Assembly: GCA_037176845.1 (NCBI GenBank)
Contig: JAYKXP010000209.1
Location: forward strand, 1-64,000
Direction of reading: 5' to 3'
Source of the DNA: Paramarasmius palmivorus
Lineage: Eukaryota; Basidiomycota; Agaricomycetes; Agaricales; Marasmiaceae
DNA length: 64,000 nt
Shown piece after piece: positions 6,679 to 19,399 of the stretch. Position numbers and translations under genes: made by a program. Below the pieces are notes generated by a model. That model saw nothing but the letters and a program-made list of their open reading frames with translations, was not told the DNA's origin and did not search any database. The number at the start of each line of letters is the position of its first letter. The stretch's first letter is position 1.

Positions 6679-8222
6679 TTAATATCGAGAAACAAACGTT
6701 GAACGTGTGATCGGTCCTAGTTCGCCCTTGATCCCGACTTCCACTGTAACGGTCCAGGGGTGAGCCGGGCCATTCGATCCTTGATCATACTTCTGCTTCT
6801 TTCTAGTTTCCGGAACAACCATGTCGCCCATTCGAGCAAGCGGTAAACGTCGTTTCTTGTCTTGCTGAAAGATAGTAGGTAGAGGAGAATGTGTCTTATA
6901 GCTACCAGCGACATTTCGCTGTAGCTCGTTGAACAACAGGCCGTCCCAGTCCTCCGTAGGGGATGCACTTCGGTCTGCAGGGAATCGCTGAAGTAAATTC
7001 TCCGCCGTAGGCCGCGACACGGGCTCAGTCGCCCAACAATCGTTCATCAATGACCACAACCAGTCTCGTATGTCGATGCCCTCGGGTTTCTCGGGGCGTA
7101 ATCCTCGTAAGACGGCTAGTAACACTGCAGCTTCGTTCGGTAGGTTGTGAAATGGAAGAAGCCCCGTAACGATCTAGTACAATTCATGAATCAATCAGAA
7201 CAGGAGAACAATAGAATATTGTTCGACTTACCTCGTAAAAAAGGCATCCAACTGAATAAATATCACTCTGTGTCGAAGAAGAAGCTCCAGTATGTATCTC
7301 GGGGGCAGACCATCTAGCAGTTCCGGCTGAATGAGTGACCGTAGATGTAACCTTGAAGACCTGGGAGTCTGCGATATGGGACAAACCGAAGTCGGCAAGA
7401 CATGCCCTATGGGATCGCGTTATCAGGACGTTAAACTAGAACAACGGTGTCAGTAACTAGACCAGCTGTAGAGTGCACCCCTACACGCACACCTTTGAGG
7501 TCTCCGTGAACGATCTTCAGTGCATGTAGATGAGATAGCCCACTCGTGATATCGTGCATCAGCTGGACGTGATTAACAGACTCCCGTGGATGAGCTCGGA
7601 TATACTCGACGAGGTTACCGTTATCCATCCAGGGGGAAACCAAACAGACGCGTTGTTGTGTATCATCGAGATAGTATAAGCCGAGACAAGGAAGGACATT
7701 AGGATGCCTGAGTTGTCGCCAGATGATTGCTTCGCGGAGGTACTCCTGCCATCAGCGAAATCAATATCAGTGTTATAGGATCCGAACGTAATGCACACCT
7801 TCATTGAGCGCTTCAAATCCGACATGAGGTACACCTTAACCACTTTTAAGCACACGAGCTGACCACTCCCAAGATGCCCTTTCCAAATATCGCCGAACCC
7901 GCCACCAGCAACGGGATGTTCTCCGAGCTTGGTCACACCTCGAATCGTCAAGCAGCCTGGGCAAAGACTGGACCTCTTGGAAAGTCGAACCATGGTTTGA
8001 CATATTGAAGCGCGAAGGTTTTTCGAAACTCCTGGAGCATCTATTAGCTGGTAAAGAGTACTTGAGCTGCGTTGAATGGAAATGATTAAAAAGATGACAT
8101 ACCTGCTGCAACCAATCCAACAACGACTGAGCTACGGGCCCCTCTTGTGCCAATAGCTTTTTGTAGGCCTCTTCGTCTCGAAATAATACCTGAAGGTCAT
8201 TGAGCTCGTCTTGGTAGTTCAT
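6679..8222 (-). CDS. TKL-like protein kinase (kinase A)
   Basis: Predicted Ser/Thr protein kinase of the tyrosine-kinase-like type expanded in Agaricomycetes. Reading leftward from the ATG at 8222 there are five exons. First comes a short helical N-terminal module ([24 protein letters not shown]), then a linker ending in [14 protein letters not shown]. The kinase domain has glycine loop [10 protein letters not shown], the VAIK-type lysine in VCLKVV, catalytic loop HGDLKG followed by FNVLI, the metal motif ADFGLS and SAPEIH. All catalytic residues are present; HGD replacing HRD is usual in this fungal group. The C-lobe ends with DCWATEPVSRPTAENLL. Introns fall in the same places as in kinases B and C. 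The frame stays open upstream of 8222 without an ATG, so a further 5' exon like the long N-terminus of kinase B may exist. The last ~60 residues (basic, KKRRLPLARMG) have no counterpart in B or C. Confidence 0.8.
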
Positions 8223-10048: not shown

Positions 10049-11857
10049 TCATACACTTTCAATAAACTTTTCAAGAAACTCCATCGCTTCATGATGCTGT
10101 GACATCGTGTTCTCCACGCTTTTTCGAAGCTCCGTGAACAACTCAGTATCCCAAACCTCCGCCGGAGCTGTAACAGGCAAACGGCGAAGTATATCCTCTG
10201 CTGTAGGTCGCGACGTAGGATCGGAATTCCAGCAATCGTTCATCAACGACCACAACTCATCCGGGACAACACCATCCAGGGGTCTCGAAGGCCGCTTTCC
10301 TTGTAGAATAGCCAATAATACCGCAGCCTCCTTTGATAGGTCATGAAATGGGACAAGGCCTGTGATGATCTGTGTCTCGTCAGAATCATCATGGCGAGTA
10401 ACGATGATAGGTCACAAACCTCGTAGAAAAGACATCCAGCCGAGTAAATATCACTCCATGTCGTTGAGGGATCACCAGCATGTATCTCAGGGGCAGACCA
10501 TTTAGCTGTTCCAACTGCATGCACAGCGGTGGAAGTCACTTTGAATTTCTGAGAGTCTGCAACGCGAGACAATCCAAAGTCAGCGATGCAAGCTCTGCGA
10601 GATCGTGTGATCAACACGTTAACCTGTAATTTGCATGGTCAGATACTATGCAAATCCTTCAGAGCATCGTCAGCTTACACCCTCAAGATCCCCATGGACG
10701 ATCTTTAACGCGTGTAGATAAGACAATCCACTTGCGATATCATACATCAGCTGAACACGATCAACAGCTTCCGGTGGCTGATTCCGAAGAAAATCGACGA
10801 GATTTCCGTTTTCCATCCAAGGAGAAACCAAACATACACGTTGCGTGTCATCAAGATAGTACAGCCCGAGACAAGGAAGAAGATTCGGATGTCTGAGCTG
10901 ACGCCAAATGATCGCTTCACGAAGGTACTCCTGCCATTTAATGAACGGAATATCTGTGTATTCAGAGCGTAATACGCACCTTTAATAAACGTTTCATATC
11001 CGACATGAGGTATACTGTTACCACCTTCAAACGCACGATCCGACCAGCTACTTCTCCGAGGCGCCCTTTCCAGATATCGCCAAACCCACCACCGGTAACT
11101 GGGTCTTTTCCGAGCTTCGTTGGGCCTCTGATTGTTAGGCAACTTGGGCAAATACTATTCCTTTTCGAAAAGCGTATCATTGTTGTATATATAGAAGCGC
11201 GTAAATTCTTCGAGATTCCTGGAGCGTCAATGAGCTGTAAGGTCACGGGTTAGAAATTGGGAATATAAACACAAGCGTGTGCTCACCTGTTGGAGCCAGT
11301 CCAATAATGATTGAACAAGGGTACCCCGCTGTTCCAGCAATCCTCGATATACCTTCTCATCATCCAGAAGTAGCTGGAGCGTTTGTACCTGGGCTTCGTA
11401 ATTTGCGGAATCTGAAATGTCTGTGCCAGTGTGCCGTCGACGTTTGGGTATAGAATCTGGGTCAAGATCATCGGACGACTTGCGCTTCGATGAGGTAGGT
11501 AGGTTAGGAATGACGAGAGAGAGCTTTTGTTGGATCTGTGAGCCCTCGTTTGCCGGATGTAGGCGTGAGGTATTGTGGTGCTCTCCTAGAGCCATCTTTC
11601 CGTCGTGTTCATGGTCGTACTGCATGACTCGTGTAGTTCTGGCGGCATAAGGTAAGGAAGGAGAATGTATGGGATCTTGCCGTTCTTGTTCAAGAGGATG
11701 AAGAAGAAAGTTTGGCAAATCGGGCGGAGACTTGAATATGGGAGATTCCAACTTGAAAAGTTTATGTATCAGATGCAGGTAAGGAGAAACACCGTGTAAA
11801 ACTTGCCTCAAAGTCAACGTCGACAGGAGAAGGGGTCGAACGTAAATCGCCCCACAT
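10049..11857 (-). CDS. TKL-like protein kinase (kinase B) with altered catalytic-loop lysine
   Basis: Paralogue of kinase A with the same exon pattern. The start is taken at ATG 11857 (MWGDLRSTPSPVDVDFE). This reads into the long second exon if a GC-AG intron (donor GAG|GCAAGT near 11809, acceptor near 11756) is used. The N-terminal ~130 residues are low-complexity and contain a basic PKRRRH patch. The helical module follows ([21 protein letters not shown]), then CPSCLTIRGPTKLG and the kinase domain: [39 protein letters not shown] and DCWNSDPTSRPTAEDIL. The catalytic-loop lysine is glutamate (HGDLE instead of HGDLK), while the catalytic aspartate, the asparagine and the DFG remain. Activity may therefore be reduced. 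The protein ends ...MEFLEKFIESV. The kinase assignment is firm; the 5' splice model is inferred. Confidence 0.8.
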
Positions 11858-12400: not shown

Positions 12401-13263
12401 GAAAAGACGACAATGCTTCATTGAATGAAATTCGGGCGTATAAAGGATGTGTCTTCAACGTTTCTCCTTTTCTTCATCTCCTATACCATCCGTACCCAGT
12501 CGCTCCTTTTCTCCGAAGCAATCAAACTCCAGAATAGATAGGTAGGAGATGGCCGGGAAAAATTGACTGGTGGACAGCCTGTTTCGTGAAGGAGGTTCGA
12601 TGGACAGCAAAAGCTTGGAATGCAAGGTACTGTCGCCTGGGAAAATTGGAACCAGGAATGGCTTTTGCAACCATCGGACTTTGTCGGACATGTTCGGAGA
12701 ATAAACTCAGTGTCACCGTCTCTCCTCCTCTCCTCCTCCTCTACCTCCCTATCTACAGAACAAGCCATTGTTCTTGGTGTAAAAAAGCAGACTACTGGGC
12801 CCAAACTCTGAGAGGTGTGTAGGTCTCACACTCACTTTGTATTCGAAGCTCAGTGCTCAGTGCCGTATACGTTTTTCACCCTTTCGACGTGCACCTGTAC
12901 TGCATCGATTCGGTCACTACATACACTGGCCCATGCGCTTCAACGTCAAGGATTGCATAGACCTCTAACTATGACCTTGTCCGCCTATCCGACGATAGCC
13001 TCCTGGTAAAATGCTCGGCGCCCCAAATATGAACACCTGGCTTGGTGTCTGGCTGTACTTGTACCAATATCCGCTTGACCTAGGGTCCTTGTTCCTCAAA
13101 AGAAAATCAACATCGTCACAGCCATTTAAATTCCCCCCACACAGCTGTCCATCAGTTATCAGCACAGGTTTCACTTGACGAACGGGGAGAAGGACGAAAG
13201 GAATGGTACATATTACAGCGGATCCAATATTCCTGACAGATTTCACTGTTCAGGACTTTTGCT

Positions 13264-13377
13264 TAGTGTACAAACAAAATTGGTCTTTTTCCGGTAATCC
13301 GCACCTTCGAAAGTGGCGCTAGAGCCTCGAGATGCAGAGCGGATTACTGTGAAAGGTTATATTTTATTTGTACACTA
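13264..13377. mobile_element. Short palindromic MITE with TA duplication
   Basis: A 110-bp element at 13266-13375 between TA dinucleotides. The arms begin GTGTACAAA(C/T)AAAAT, and the arm similarity resumes at GTAATCCGC, so the whole element can fold into a long hairpin. There is no coding capacity. It lies just upstream of the fusion kinase gene and could affect its promoter. Terminal sequences differ from those of the 451-bp element, so it is a different family. Confidence 0.75.
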
Positions 13378-13523
13378 AACAAAAATCAAAAACAGCTAAA
13401 ATCGAAAAAGTTCCTGGAAATATTGCTGTACTATGATGCTTTGTAACTGCTCATGAATCAGAATACGGCTGCGGTGGGACCAGATCGCATCCGTCGACGT
13501 CGTATACGTCATTCCTTTCTTCC

Positions 13524-16500
13524 ATGACATACGAATACGAGCTCAAGCTACTCCGGCTGCTACTCCAGGATAAAAGAGCCTACGAGAAATTGTTGGATCA
13601 GAGAGGCGACCTGGCCCAGTCATTGTTAGACTGGTTACAACAGGTATGGACGGTTCTTTTGTTCTCGGCCGACATTGCTAAATCAGAAACTCGACCAGTT
13701 AATCGATGCTCCGGAAATCCCAAACGAGTTACGGCCTTTGATTTGCAAGGCAATGGTTCGTCTTTCGAAGAGATCCGAGCTTGGTCCAAATTGCTTGACA
13801 ATTCGAGGCGTTACGAAGCTCGGAGATTGTGCGGTCGCCTTCGGCGGGTTTGGTGATATATGGAAAGGACAGCTGGAAGGATTGGACGGGCACCTCATAT
13901 GTATCAAAGTCCCCAGAGTGAATCTCACGTCGGATATGCTGTATTTACTCAGGGTGCGTAACTTTCGAAGCGTTTGTAACCACATACTCACCTCGATGAT
14001 TGCAGAATTACCTTCGTGAGGCAATCATTTGGCGGCAGCTCAGACACCCTAACCTTCTTCCGTGCCTTGGCCTGTACTACCTCGATGATACGAAAGAACG
14101 TGTTTGCTTGATATCTCCCTGGATGGAAGAAAGAAATCTCGTTGAGTTCCTCAGAAATCACCCACGAGAATCCATTGACCACCTCCGGCTCATGTATGAC
14201 ATAGCCAGTGGACTGACTCATCTTCACGGCCTGAAGGTTGTTCACGGTGACCTCAAAAGCGTAGGCTGTTAAATCCCGTACTTGTAATTTCCCAAACTGA
14301 CGTACCCGAAACCATGTAGGCCAATATTCTGATTACAACATCCCACCGAGCTTGCATTGGCGACTTCGGCTTGTCCAACGTCGCAGACTCTCAATTTTTC
14401 AGCACCACGTCCAGTGTGCAAACAGGAGGTACTGCGCGATGGAGTGCCCCTGAAGTACATAATGGAAAAACACCGACGACAGAGAGCGATATTTATTCGT
14501 GCGGATGCCTTTTCTATGAGGTCCGTAGTTTCTTCTGCTCACTCAAGAAAACCTAATAAAAGGTGTCAGGTTATGACAGGCCTCCTTCCGTTTTATACGC
14601 TGAAGAGGGACCCCGCAATTTTAATGGCGGTTTTGCGAGGGGAACGTCCTCTAAAACCTCCCGATATCAACATACCAGAGTGGCTATGGTCGTTAATTAA
14701 CCACTGTTGGAGGGCTGAGCCTGTGTCACGACCCAGGGCAGATGATCTGTTTCAGAGTCTATCATCAGGAAGAAATATCCCCCCTGCAGAGAACTGGAGT
14801 GACACATTATTCTCCGGGGTTCAAAAGAATATATCAACAGGTCACCAGGATCAAAACGTGCTGGAATTTCTGGAAGCAGTTGTCAAAACGCAAGACATAC
14901 CTGAATTGGCCCAGGGAACACCAGCGAATGTGGAAGATTCACAATCTGGTAACTCAGTGCGTCACAGTTTATTAGTACCACTCAACACCTCTGACGCCTC
15001 TTCGCCTCAGCCGTCACACATACGTGACCTGGGTCAAGAACCTGTCATTGCGATCGGCAAGACAGCAGTGGATATTTCAGTAGAATTTGCTCCTGTTCCC
15101 GAACTGCAGCCTGCAGTAGATCTACTCTTCCAGATCATCGAACTCTGTGAGAATGTATCAATCAATCGGTGAGTTGTTCAATTGCAGTGCCATCGATGAA
15201 CGGCTCGGACGCTCACTGGCTTGCAATAGGACTCAGGCGCGAAGTCTGTCTCTCTGCTGCTACAATCTCCTACAGGCTGTGCGAGATCATGAGCACCATG
15301 TGCCTAACAGTCTGCAAACCATCTCTCAAGATGTTCAAGCGTAGGGGTCACATTGTCGTCCATTTCCAATGAGTTCATGCCTCTGTCGCTATAGTTGTTT
15401 CAAACAGATTCGAGTGACAATGGCAAAATGGGCAGAGTTAGGTTTCATCAAGTCATTTTTGAACCAGGATTATATGATGGAGGATATAGAGAGTTGTCTT
15501 GTGACAATTTCTGACTGTTTTAGAAATTTCCAGGTGTGTGGAACTTAAACCAATGCGTAGAATCGACATTCACCCAGAGACAGTTCGCGGGAACCATGGA
15601 GATCAGCCACTGGCAGGAGGATTTCGAGAAGGCTTACAAAGAAGACCAGAAGGGAATGCTCATGCATCTCTCTGACATCAAGAACGGGCAAGCAATGGCC
15701 CTCGAAATATCAAATGAACCAGAGGAAAAGCGCGTGAGGTTTATGACAAGGATGCAGGACGTGTGTTTTCTATCTTTAGCTCTTCCATGATCATTTTACT
15801 AAACACCTAACAGGAATTAGGTCAACACAATACGCGAGGGGACACTGTACACAGCGGATTGTCCAGTAATCTATACCAAATCCAACTTGAATGTAAAGAG
15901 ATCCTGCCAGATTTGCACCTCAAGCGTGGCGAGGTCGAACGCATCGGGGTGTCTCCACTCAAAGGAGAAGGAGCTATGGATATCTACGAAGGTCTCTATC
16001 TTAAGAGAGAGAGGGTTGCGATCAAAACTATACGCGCCTCGAACTTCAATCCAAAGAATATCGAGGTATATTCCATGATCTCGTGAATGGCCCGAGGATA
16101 ATGATGGTTTCACGTAGCGGTTCTCGCGCGAAGTCGAGGTCTGGACTGAGCTCTGGAAGGTAGACAGGGGTAAACATATTCTACCCTTCTATGGGTTTTG
16201 TGTTGAAGGTGGACCGTACCCGTACCCGTACGTTTGATTTGTTTTGCGCATGCGTCGGACTTTTAGCTCAAGCGCCCGGCAGATATATGGTCAGTCCGTG
16301 GAAGTCTAACGGTACTGCCATCGACTATGTCACAAAGTTCGACTTGACTGTCAATTATCCCGAACTAGTAAGTACAATCGCTACCTTCAAGAACTAGGTT
16401 CCTTACTCATCGAGACGACGCTCACAGATGATCAACATCGCCCGTGGTATTCAAGTTCTACATTATATGAAGCCGCCCGTCGTCCATGGCGGCCTCAAAG

Positions 16501-17046
16501 CTGACAACATCGTCATTGATGAAACGGGGAATCCTTTAATCGCGAGCTTCGGGTCTTCACAGGTTCATGCTTCGTCGAAATTGTCTACTCAAGTAATGGT
16601 ACTCAAAGTACGCATCCTCGCAGATCATTAAAGACATTACCAGAGTACCATTCAGCCTGAGCCGAATGACCAATTCATGGCGATGGTCTGCACCGGAGGT
16701 TATCATTGATGGAGCACCTCCTTCTCTCGCGGTAGACATTTATGCCTTCGCGATGACCGTTCTCGAGGTAAGCTTGAACCATTCACCCCATTGACACTTA
16801 TATGTGACATCACTTTAGATATATACGCACAAACGAACATTCTCCAACATCGAGGACCCGAGGGAGGTTCTGATTGAGCTCTCCAACGGGATTTTTCCTC
16901 TTAGGCCGACAGAAGCGCAAGTGTTGCAAAGGGGACTGGATGATAACACTTGGAATTTGATGACTAAATGTTGGAGTTCTGATGCGTCGTCGAGACCCAA
17001 TATCGATGCCGTTCTCAGCACGCTAGGAGCTTCCGAAGCTTTGTAG
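13524..17046 (+). CDS. Fusion protein: TKL-like kinase + MLKL-NTD-like helical domain + pseudokinase
   Basis: Exons that fit in phase: 13524-13643, 13687-13953, 14006-14260, 14320-14520, 14570-15168, 15230-15340, 15395-15533, then about 15590-15760, 15815-16065, 16120-16230, 16285-16370, 16428-16570, 16660-16768 and 16820-17046. Part 1 is a complete kinase like A and B: helical module, [38 protein letters not shown]. The same exon runs on without stop or in-frame Met into [20 protein letters not shown]. Next come [22 protein letters not shown] and [15 protein letters not shown], the pattern of the MLKL-type four-helix adaptor domain of Agaricomycetes. Part 3 is a second kinase fold with VAIKTI. 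Its catalytic loop is HGGLKADN (aspartate lost) and ASFGSS replaces DFG, so it is a pseudokinase. Its end ([17 protein letters not shown]) is intact. By analogy it may act in regulated cell death or non-self response. The alternative is two genes with an unseen promoter near 15.0 kb. Confidence 0.75.
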
Positions 17047-17129: not shown

Positions 17130-19013
17130 TTACTGCGATGCAAAGAATACTGTAAGAATGAGAACATAAATGGCCACCCCAGAAATGGTGCTCGAGGAAG
17201 CGGAACCAGAGGAAGATGAAGTTGTTCGGCCTACATCGGATGAGACCGTTGAACTAACTCGCTCCAGAGTGGTATTCATAGTAATCGGTAGCGTCAAGAC
17301 AAGGACTGACGATATTTGCGTGACAGTGAGGTGCCCATCCGTGTCCGATTCCTCTATGCTCGGGGTTATGATACTCGTTACAGGGAAGTTGTGCTGTTTG
17401 TCAGACTGAGTGATATCGACTGTGACTGGTATGGTGGTAATAAGGTGCGACGTTGTAAGAACGGTAACAGGACCTGCGTCGTCCACGGTTACAGTACTAG
17501 GAGAAATAGAGATGGGAGGATCGAAGATAGCGACGGAAGAAGGACTGTCGACAGGGGCGGTGGGATCGAAGACAGTGACGGAAGAAGTGGTCGGTAAGAC
17601 AACGGGGAAATCTGTTTTAGAGACCGGGCTCGCCGAAACCGCAGCCGAGTCGACCACAATCGAAGTTGTAAGCACCGGGCCAACATTCGTCGGGGAATCC
17701 CTGGCCACCACTCTCGAGGCTAGTGCCTTCGTCGAGAAAGTCCGAATATACGCGATCTCCCAATACGCAGTGGCATAATTGCTTCCGTCCCCGTACACAT
17801 CCGACTAGTAGAACCACAATAAGTATACCAAAGCTGGCAAATTGCGGAACGTACGTACAATGCACTCTCCAGGACATGTTTCAGCGTACACTTCAGGTAT
17901 ACCTGCCCTACAAGTCGACTCAGGTCGATGATCACCAGCCAAGGCAAAGGAATGCTCACCATTGACCGCACAGTGTGATGTCTAAGATGAGCTTTTGTGG
18001 CTTGAAAAACTTCTCGATATCGCAGCCAGCAGCGGGATAGGCTGCGCTGTGTTTTCCCCAATCTGATAAATTCATAGACGAGTAGGAGTCGGCTTCAGAT
18101 ATAGAGACTGGGATATCACGTCGCTGCGAACATTCTATCAGTTTCATGGAAGCGAGGATCAAAAAACCAACACCCACACTCCAAAACCACATGAACACCC
18201 CTTGAACATCGATCTTGAGAGCAAACACGCCCCCTCCAGCCTTCGCGAACCCTTCTCCGTAGCTGTCAGACTTCGTTTCCTCAACCTTGCAGCCTACGTC
18301 GCTGTTACAGTCCGTAGCAAGCGTTTTGCCTCCTTGGTCAACGCCGGGAGACTGCACACAACCAGGATCGCTGTGCATCACCATGTTGTTGGCCGTCATT
18401 CCGTTGATGCCCTCGATGAGATCAAGCTCGCCAGCGTGTGGCCATCCGAGCTCGGTTCCCAGCGTCCAAAATGCAGGCCATACCTGAGATAATGTATCAG
18501 AGCTATTGAAAGATTCAGAGATCAAAGGACGTACAGAGCAACCATAAGGAATATGAACGGCGTCTATGATGATCAAGCTTCCAATAGCGTACGCATCTTT
18601 CGATGTGATCTTAACCTGGAATGATAATCAGCTTAGCGGCTGGATGCCTAAAGACGAAAAGATGTACTCACGGATTTGCGGTAAGCAGACAAACTACCGG
18701 CCTCGATGTTGGTGGTATTGTCGACTCGAATGATACCGTGTCCAGTCGAAGGGTCAACAAAGGTAAGCCTATCTCGAGTACCAGTTTGTCTGTCGACGTA
18801 GGAAACATTGCCTATATTTCCATTAGCACAAGTGTTTGGTGCAATACGTGAAATGTACGCACCCCAGGTAGTATCGTCAATGTTCCCATAGTAGTCCCAC
18901 TCTGAAAAGAACCCTGATCCGGCATATTCTCGTACAGGTTCATATACTCCCAGAGCCGCGAAGGCTTTAGCAAAGAGGAGAGTCTTGAAGAAAAGAGCGT
19001 AGGTTGATCTCAT
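17130..19013 (-). CDS. GH16 family endo-beta-1,3(4)-glucanase-like protein, secreted and GPI-anchored
   Basis: Glycoside hydrolase that should cleave beta-1,3/1,4-glucans at the cell wall. Reading leftward from ATG 19013, the protein has a signal peptide (MRSTYALFFKTLLFAKAFAA) and the GH16 core. The core includes SEWDYYGNID, GSLSAYRKS, WPAFWTLG and the catalytic motif GELDLIEGIN (two catalytic Glu around one Asp). Further GH16 landmarks follow: NNMVMHSDPGC, GVFALKIDVQG, MWFWS, and SDWGKHSAAYP near the substrate side. After the last core strands (DVYGDGSNYATAYWEIAYIRTF) comes a ~150-residue Ser/Thr/Val-rich stalk ending SSSSGSASSSTISG plus a hydrophobic tail (VAIYVLILTVFFASQ), the layout of a GPI-anchored wall protein. 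About five short introns fit in phase. One near 18180-18130 is 54 nt with no in-frame stop. Long plus-strand frames over the stalk are antisense shadows of the simple-sequence codons. Confidence 0.9.
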
Positions 19014-19399
19014 GTCAAGGAGAGCTGGAAGAAAAGAATGAACAACTATTTACGGCGACAAGGGCTTTATAAACTCACATCTCGCAGTGTCAACCATCAT
19101 CGCACGGGAACAACTCAGGTGCGATGACCAGTTCGTATCGAGATGGAAACGGGTTCATGGCAGATGTTGAGATGCAAGAGCACAGAGAGTGATGTTGACG
19201 AAAATAGGTATTTGCGCTTTCATAGTCCTAGGCACCACATTAAAGTCGAGAAACGTGACCACTCTTCCGTGCGACGGTGCAACCTTGATACATTTGCCAC
19301 AGAATAAATTTTAGGCTGCGCAACGGCCCCACATCCCAGTGTGCATCAGATCGCCCCAGCCGACTTGTGCATTACATTCGCCGGAACAGGGCTTGCCAT

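Follow-up and report, generated by a model that had tools for sequence, protein, structure and literature searches.

The gene at positions 13524–17046 (forward strand) of the window, the whole 64,000-nucleotide stretch of Paramarasmius palmivorus DNA that was analyzed (contig C209 of an assembly of 68.3 Mb in 393 contigs), proved to be a genuine fusion of a kinase gene, in frame, with an MLKL-type gene whose kinase half is degenerate. Paramarasmius palmivorus is an agaric of the Marasmiaceae, and MLKL is the executioner protein of necroptosis in animal cells. Judging from sequences and trees, fusions with a kinase before an MLKL domain seem to have at least three independent origins in mushrooms. 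The species is listed among the causes of cacao thread blight in the available part of one report (PMC11053350). The initial annotation of this DNA had read a kinase, an MLKL-type helical domain and a pseudokinase, in this order, from one reading frame. The same order was obtained with a hand-spliced model of 14 exons and 940 stop-free codons, running from the ATG at 13524 to the stop codon that ends at 17046. All introns are GT..AG introns of 43–61 nt and lie in phase 0, except three in phase 2. A spliced-alignment script recovered the identical 14 exons. The parts of the gene are as follows:

13524..17046, forward strand: whole fused gene, with N-terminal helical region, kinase 1, linker, MLKL-type bundle with brace, and pseudokinase (splice model; the NCBI record P0001 covers it from Met 300 onward)
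13524..13806, forward strand: N-terminal region, residues 1–80, common to the stand-alone kinase paralogues
13807..14785, forward strand: kinase 1, residues 81–353, catalytic motifs intact (HGD Asp 211 at 14249–14251, DFG Asp 229 at 14362–14364)
14570..15168, forward strand: exon 5, which begins in the kinase C-lobe, spans the linker and ends in the MLKL domain (splice model)
15065..15527, forward strand: predicted MLKL-type helical bundle, residues ~447–562, a short N-terminal helix and four long helices (Pfam, profile search and AlphaFold2, numbering converted)
15584..15894, forward strand: predicted brace-like helices linking the bundle to the kinase fold, residues ~565–650 (AlphaFold2, numbering converted)
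15937..17028, forward strand: pseudokinase, residues 665–935, with HGG (Gly 794 at 16491–16493), SFG (Ser 812 at 16545–16547) and the activation-segment Ser/Thr retained

Kinase 1 is complete, as annotated, with the alpha-C Glu, HGDLKSAN, DFG and SAPE motifs all present. Compared with the stand-alone kinase at the paralogous locus L056, it shows 86% identity and a ratio of nonsynonymous to synonymous rates (dN/dS) of 0.18. Residues 1–80 ahead of it matched no Pfam family above cut-off. Exon 5 crosses the transition from the kinase C-lobe to the MLKL domain without a stop, as had been noted; the accompanying statement that it holds no in-frame Met had to be corrected, as residues 283 and 300 are Met, both within the kinase C-lobe. 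An ATG of its own for the downstream half, which would have pointed to two genes, is absent at the sequence level: residues 301–526 of the model contain no Met, i.e., no second start codon lies between the domains. The NCBI record VNI00_018087 (P0001, 623 aa) takes Met 300 as its start, which falls within the kinase fold and not at a domain boundary. From there on it is identical to our model, save for residues 411–428 (18 residues), which it takes as an intron.

The two kinase folds are separated by a linker and a domain of ~200 residues. The Pfam scan of the 940-residue protein recovered the two expected kinase stretches (protein E-value 3e-66); MLKL_N also matched, though too weakly to reach the cut-off. 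This match (PF22215, residues 465–562) scored 15.0 bits (E 0.018) with the domain alone and 11.8 bits (E 0.18) with the whole protein, against a curated cut-off of 27 bits. Among nine relatives, five gave 17.9–26.6 bits and four had no match at E 0.5. With the nine-member family profile set (A2), PF22215 matched six of nine at E 0.01 or better (best 1.1e-6). The precomputed assignment PF22215.2 was carried by 7 of the 84 proteins that our protein searches returned.

The helices between the kinase folds, on which the annotated domain order depended, were predicted with high confidence. AlphaFold2, run on P0001 with 66 relatives, placed helices at 130–137, 141–159, 164–187, 192–223 and 225–245 (P0001 numbering) and further helices within 251–333, followed by the kinase; the block 131–340 had a predicted local distance difference test score of 84–98. 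The model has four long helices and brace helices before the kinase fold. In Foldseek, kinases dominated the matches to this model, and mouse MLKL (4btf) ranked 32 among the 50 matches listed. It was the sole row there with an alignment (488 columns) much longer than a kinase, and its root-mean-square deviation of 17.1 indicates that the bundle and kinase halves are set differently in the model and in mouse MLKL. VIA-align gave kinases in all 50 rows listed. A profile search of the PDB with nine family members gave nine matches, six of them MLKL over nearly the same columns, but weak (E 0.13–0.22). The best match was SUWA (Super WA20) at E 0.013, and others included Syn-F4-Link and pRLB-519; SUWA and Syn-F4-Link are, we presume, designed helical proteins. 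A single-sequence PDB search with the window's domain gave one match, which was not MLKL. The domain is thus MLKL-like by predicted fold and by domain order; some relatives pass the Pfam cut-off and the window copy does not. The PF22215 search of the P. palmivorus genome gave five hits, all outside the loci of this MLKL-kinase family. The sole match above cut-off in that search (C76:13445–13786, E 8e-9) lies in a different protein with an 892-aa open frame (L059, 2331–5009, reverse strand).

The second kinase fold retains VAIK, the alpha-C Glu and SAPE; HGGLKADN stands in place of the HGD motif and SFG in place of DFG, which confirms the annotated loss of both Asp residues. One intact (HGD/DFG) and one degenerate (HGG/SFG) kinase per chain is the layout of plant tandem kinases, a likeness of layout only.

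The P. palmivorus genome has at least eight loci with an MLKL-kinase half, namely the window gene, a second fused gene (L052) and six stand-alone genes (L053–L058). Their DNA located the joint between the two halves:

14963..14991, forward strand: fusion junction (the DNA match on the kinase side stops at 14962 with L061 or 14982 with L056; on the MLKL side it starts at 14992–14994 with L053 and L055)
15029..15031, forward strand: CTG (Leu 435), at the aligned position where the stand-alone genes L053, L055 and L056 have their ATG

The stand-alone MLKL genes begin at a Met shortly before an IGKT-like stretch, and the NCBI records P0003, P0081 and P0082 have the same starts. Since the DNA match to L053 and L055 begins within the 5' flank of those genes and their ATG is now CTG, a former 5' leader now encodes the linker. 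The window gene is 74–77% identical to L053–L056 in the MLKL part and 85–87% in the pseudokinase part, and it has the later-exon layout in common with the stand-alone paralogues. The window fusion is young. An origin from an allele or haplotype was considered and rejected, since nothing close to a second copy of the linker-kinase exon appeared among the matches listed (next best 77%). The window linker is nearer to that of L061 (74% identity) than to that of L056 (58%); L061 (7519–8962) is a stand-alone kinase-1 paralogue that is itself degenerate (HSDLQ, no DFG).

The initial annotation had proposed looking for the same domain order elsewhere, and it recurs. L052 (C96, 3496–6921) has the same 14-exon layout, again with exon 5 across the junction, and its second kinase reads HGD and EFG. 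Its NCBI record, P0002, is a single chain with ~430 extra residues in front and one kinase exon fewer than the spliced model. Pfam gave no match for these residues (1–430). By eye, they resemble residues 1–450 of P0004 from Moniliophthora roreri (IGDVG motif), which stand before the MLKL domain there and before kinase 1 in P0002.

Queried with the window's MLKL stretch, the protein search matched nothing beyond the gene's own NCBI record (1 of 309 candidates); the family came to light with two other queries, the second fused gene (44 hits) and P0042 (77 hits). In the Mycenaceae (Mycena, Favolaschia), 12 of the 84 returned proteins carry a kinase directly before the MLKL domain. These twelve form one clade, and their MLKL part follows the kinase without the long linker of the window gene. 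Six of them (P0045, P0046, P0047, P0049, P0050, P0052) have an extra kinase fold in front, with HGN and with a GYG-type motif or GHG replacing DFG; their last kinase has degenerated in P0045, P0046 and P0049, whereas P0050 and P0052 have it intact; in P0047 it is cut. In one protein the order is reversed: P0040 (Mycena capillaripes) has an MLKL-kinase followed, by eye, by the start of a kinase-1-type kinase.

For the trees, 92 sequences were collected (84 returned, 8 own models), and P0001–P0003 (records of included rows) and P0084 (no MLKL part) were dropped. P0081 and P0082, the records of L054 and L053, were left in, and these two stand-alone rows are counted twice. In the resulting 88-row tree of the MLKL-kinase halves, kinase fusion takes three changes. 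Approximately unbiased (AU) tests were run on 30 of the 88 rows, with groups named after the first tree had been seen. Grouping all seven fused rows in one clade was rejected (p-AU 3.4e-48), and so was a common origin of the window gene and L052 (p-AU 2.1e-5). In the 30-row tree L052 is sister to the stand-alone L058 (support 99/96), and the window gene groups with the stand-alone L053–L056 (100/100), i.e., it is a member of an Agaricales MLKL_N-kinase family. That the fusion recurs suggests a joint function of such kinases and MLKL-like proteins in fungi.

Fused and non-fused rows differ in their second kinase. Both motifs could be read in 84 rows; of these, 8 of the 10 fused rows and 7 of the 74 non-fused ones have lost the Asp of HGD or of DFG (Fisher test p 5.6e-6, ignoring kinship); P0062, a cut gene model, is counted as lost among the seven, and four fused rows have no readable second kinase. 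The kinase directly before the MLKL domain kept HGD and DFG in all 13 readable fused rows, the fourteenth being cut. Among the non-fused exceptions P0004 reads HGN, and its near relative P0075 lacks both HGN and the P0004-type N-terminal region. Six activation-segment positions, chosen as Ser/Thr in 84–99% of the intact non-fused rows, were also scored. Two of them were Ser/Thr in 9/10 and 10/10 readable fused rows, and the window copy keeps all six.

The N-terminal Gly-Lys/Arg of the bundle was found in 64 of 67 readable non-fused rows (seven more without the N-terminal stretch are excluded) and in 0 of the 12 Mycenaceae fusions; the window gene keeps it (IGK, in an IGKTA start). The three non-fused rows without it are P0037 and P0039, which look like merged gene models, and L058. 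L052 reads RK at this site and its stand-alone sister L058 reads CK. As the sister also lacks the Gly, its loss in L052 is not tied to the fusion and is older or separate.

On the window branch, dN/dS was 0.30–0.35 for the pseudokinase (5–95% bootstrap 0.21–0.52 over three comparisons) and 0.43–0.49 for the MLKL domain, compared with 0.05–0.22 on the stand-alone L053 and L055 branches. The MLKL domain of L052 gave 0.27 (bootstrap 0.04–0.37); for its kinase part the bootstrap was unusable (0.12–9). When the MLKL-kinase half of one paralogue was evolved neutrally in 500 simulations (0.18 changes per site), 8.7 stops arose on average and no run remained stop-free. As dN/dS lies below 1 and no neutral simulation escaped stops, the gene is under constraint; by these sequence comparisons its purifying selection is weaker than in its stand-alone kin. 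The end branch of the window gene is also longer (0.15–0.16) than those of the four nearest stand-alone paralogues (≤0.06).

Two stand-alone kinases of the kinase-1 type lie upstream of the fused gene:

10055..11400, reverse strand: kinase-1-type stand-alone gene lying head to head with the fused gene, the modelled ends 2.1 kb apart
6826..8222, reverse strand: further stand-alone kinase of the kinase-1 type

The same arrangement was observed for four of the six stand-alone MLKL genes (L053, L055, L056 and L057), which stand head to head with a kinase-1-type gene with modelled starts 1.3–2.0 kb apart; the L053 and L055 regions resemble duplicates of a single block. L054 and L058 had no such partner within the flanking stretch examined. 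Kinase-1-type matches form arrays on several contigs, including C45, C47 and C96.

Our tentative reading is that the fused protein is a kinase-gated, non-autonomous MLKL-like regulator that acts with the intact stand-alone paralogues. An upstream signal would activate kinase 1, which, across the ~80-residue linker, could phosphorylate in cis the activation segment of the neighbouring pseudokinase. The latter has lost its own catalysis and kept its activation-segment Ser/Thr, the proposed target. Phosphorylation may then release the bundle for oligomerization at the membrane, where the fused protein would serve as nucleator or gate for the cell's own intact stand-alone MLKL-kinases. Oligomerization with paralogues, membrane damage and a role in immunity or non-self recognition would belong to this reading. 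Because the kinase caps the N-terminus of the bundle, the fused protein is expected to gate its paralogues rather than form a pore alone. A little more tentatively still, mushrooms may have repeatedly built a one-chain necroptosis-like switch, each fusion of an active kinase having freed the MLKL protein's own kinase to become a pseudokinase.

The regulator reading is supported by the junction in the DNA with CTG at the former start codon, the three origins, the catalytic losses in the second kinase beside an intact kinase before the MLKL domain, the two conserved Ser/Thr positions, the dN/dS values of the window branch and the head-to-head pairs. Several observations weigh against it. Relaxed constraint alone could explain the catalytic loss, because dN/dS is raised on the fused branch, and the MLKL-domain bootstrap (0.27–1.02) reaches 1.02 in one of the three comparisons. 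The Mycenaceae fusions P0050 and P0052 keep HGD and DFG in the second kinase. The association of fusion with catalytic loss falls short of significance, as the independent contrasts number only three (median p 0.25 in the sign test). The other four activation-segment positions are Ser/Thr in just 5–8 of 10 fused rows. The head-to-head neighbours could partly be due to chance, because the kinases lie in arrays.

We nevertheless favour the gated regulator over four other readings. The first of these is a self-contained executioner, in which activation of the MLKL half in cis by kinase 1 would let the protein itself permeabilize the membrane, perhaps after cleavage in the linker. All parts are present in one chain, and the window copy keeps both the IGKTA start of the bundle and the six activation-segment Ser/Thr. 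Killing by the fused protein alone is doubtful, however, because EGFP or SsrA on the N-terminus of a mammalian MLKL construct blocked killing and still allowed membrane recruitment (PMC9709077), and because the Mycenaceae fusions have lost the Gly-Lys/Arg. We therefore consider this reading unlikely. The initial annotation had suggested that the gene may tether an activating kinase to its executioner; the single chain stands, and the capped N-terminus together with the Mycenaceae loss speaks against the simple form of that idea.

Slightly less plausible than the executioner is an immune sensor resembling the tandem kinases of plants. Here the degenerate kinase would serve as a decoy or ligand platform, kinase 1 would signal, and the bundle would be an assembly or membrane module. 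Kinase and pseudokinase do stand in one chain, the window copy evolves faster than its kin, and six Mycenaceae copies carry the additional HGN kinase fold before the intact kinase. Plant kinase fusion proteins are discussed as such decoys or sensors in the available text of PMC10951266. Our data hold no link to a ligand or pathogen, and the activation segment is partly conserved, which a pure decoy would not need.

Improbable, to our judgment, is a by-product of kinase-cluster turnover, that is, a recent fusion, little expressed or drifting, with a decaying second half. The youth of the fusion, its raised dN/dS, the catalytic losses and the kinase arrays on several contigs would agree with this. 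Against it stand the 14 exons, all open, a dN/dS below 1 and the neutral simulations; the second fusion L052 is also open with a constrained MLKL domain, and in the Mycenaceae an entire clade is fused.

Very improbable are two separate genes or transcripts, one for the kinase and one for the MLKL-pseudokinase, that merely look fused: P0001 is annotated only from Met 300 on, and predictors do seem to merge neighbours in this family (see P0037, P0039, P0041 and P0044 below), but P0001 starts inside the kinase C-lobe, the ancestral MLKL start is now CTG, no Met follows up to residue 526, L052 is annotated as one chain (P0002), and the twelve Mycenaceae rows form one clade whose MLKL part follows the kinase directly.

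Compared with known systems, the nearest are the stand-alone MLKL_N-kinases of Agaricales, such as P0007 (Marasmius fiardii), P0075 (Moniliophthora roreri) and P0003 (same genome), with the same bundle, brace and kinase; P0007 is 50% identical to the MLKL-kinase half of the fused gene. Unlike the fused gene, they have no front kinase, start at their own Met shortly before (S)LGK, and keep their motifs intact in 67 of 74 non-fused rows. NCBI names several of them TKL/TKL-ccin; the kind is known, if little described. We know of no account of how kinase-bearing fungal MLKL-like proteins are switched on. Plant tandem kinases of the Yr15 type reportedly also have a kinase and a pseudokinase per chain, in a different lineage; to our knowledge, and unlike the fused gene, they carry no MLKL-type bundle between the kinases. 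Vertebrate MLKL with RIPK3 shows a helical bundle, brace and pseudokinase in the same order and an associated intact kinase. RIPK3 and MLKL are, however, separate proteins, and the sequence likeness to MLKL is weak (profile E 0.13–0.22, a presumed designed bundle doing better at 0.013). The likeness to RIPK3/MLKL is one of logic, the window fusion being young.

In the excerpted text of PMC10951266, wheat Pm13 is an MLKL_NTD with a kinase whose residues are intact. Pm13 and the plant MLKLs share with the fused gene the order of an MLKL-type N-terminal domain and then a kinase, and Pm13 keeps its kinase residues as most stand-alone fungal proteins do. As described there, they have one kinase fold and nothing ahead of the bundle, unlike the fused gene. 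A 2022 study, as far as its text was available (PMC9815663), describes BaMLKL effector domains on basidiomycete NOD-like receptors (NLRs), an MLKL-type bundle with an extra N-terminal helix. Such a helix is also predicted for the window, but the BaMLKL bundle heads an NLR and the window bundle lies between two kinase folds. According to the accessible part of a 2025 review, some HELL domains belong to proteins with kinase or pseudokinase domains (PMC12881547). In the parts of the cited papers that were available, fungal MLKL-like domains are mainly NLR-linked or amyloid-triggered effectors. In the open-licence literature we found no description of a kinase–MLKL–pseudokinase protein, or of an active kinase ahead of an MLKL-type protein, in fungi.

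The chief interest is that the fusion recurs and that its recurrences tend toward the same degeneration. The recurrent fusions point to a candidate family of activating kinases, and the stand-alone copies (mostly intact) and fused copies (mostly degenerate) form a natural before/after series for the question of how a kinase becomes a pseudokinase. If the proposed switch is correct, the fused copies would be Rosetta-stone evidence that kinases of the kinase-1 type are the upstream activators of the widespread stand-alone fungal MLKL-kinases, and the fusions would replay the step that made animal MLKL a RIPK3-dependent pseudokinase.

In three Mycenaceae annotations (P0039, P0041 and P0044) MDM10 is joined to the MLKL-kinase, and P0037 contains a CoA-binding domain. 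The MDM10 joins are probably neighbouring genes merged by gene prediction, which hints at a conserved location of the MLKL-kinase next to MDM10. An inverted repeat lies at 13241–13400, with 62-nt arms (74% complementary) and a 36-nt spacer, and ends ~120 bp before the ATG of the fused gene; it could be the remnant of a small DNA transposon. Downstream, at 17130–19049 on the reverse strand, a several-exon gene carries motifs that we take to be those of a secreted glycoside hydrolase with a Ser/Thr-rich tail.

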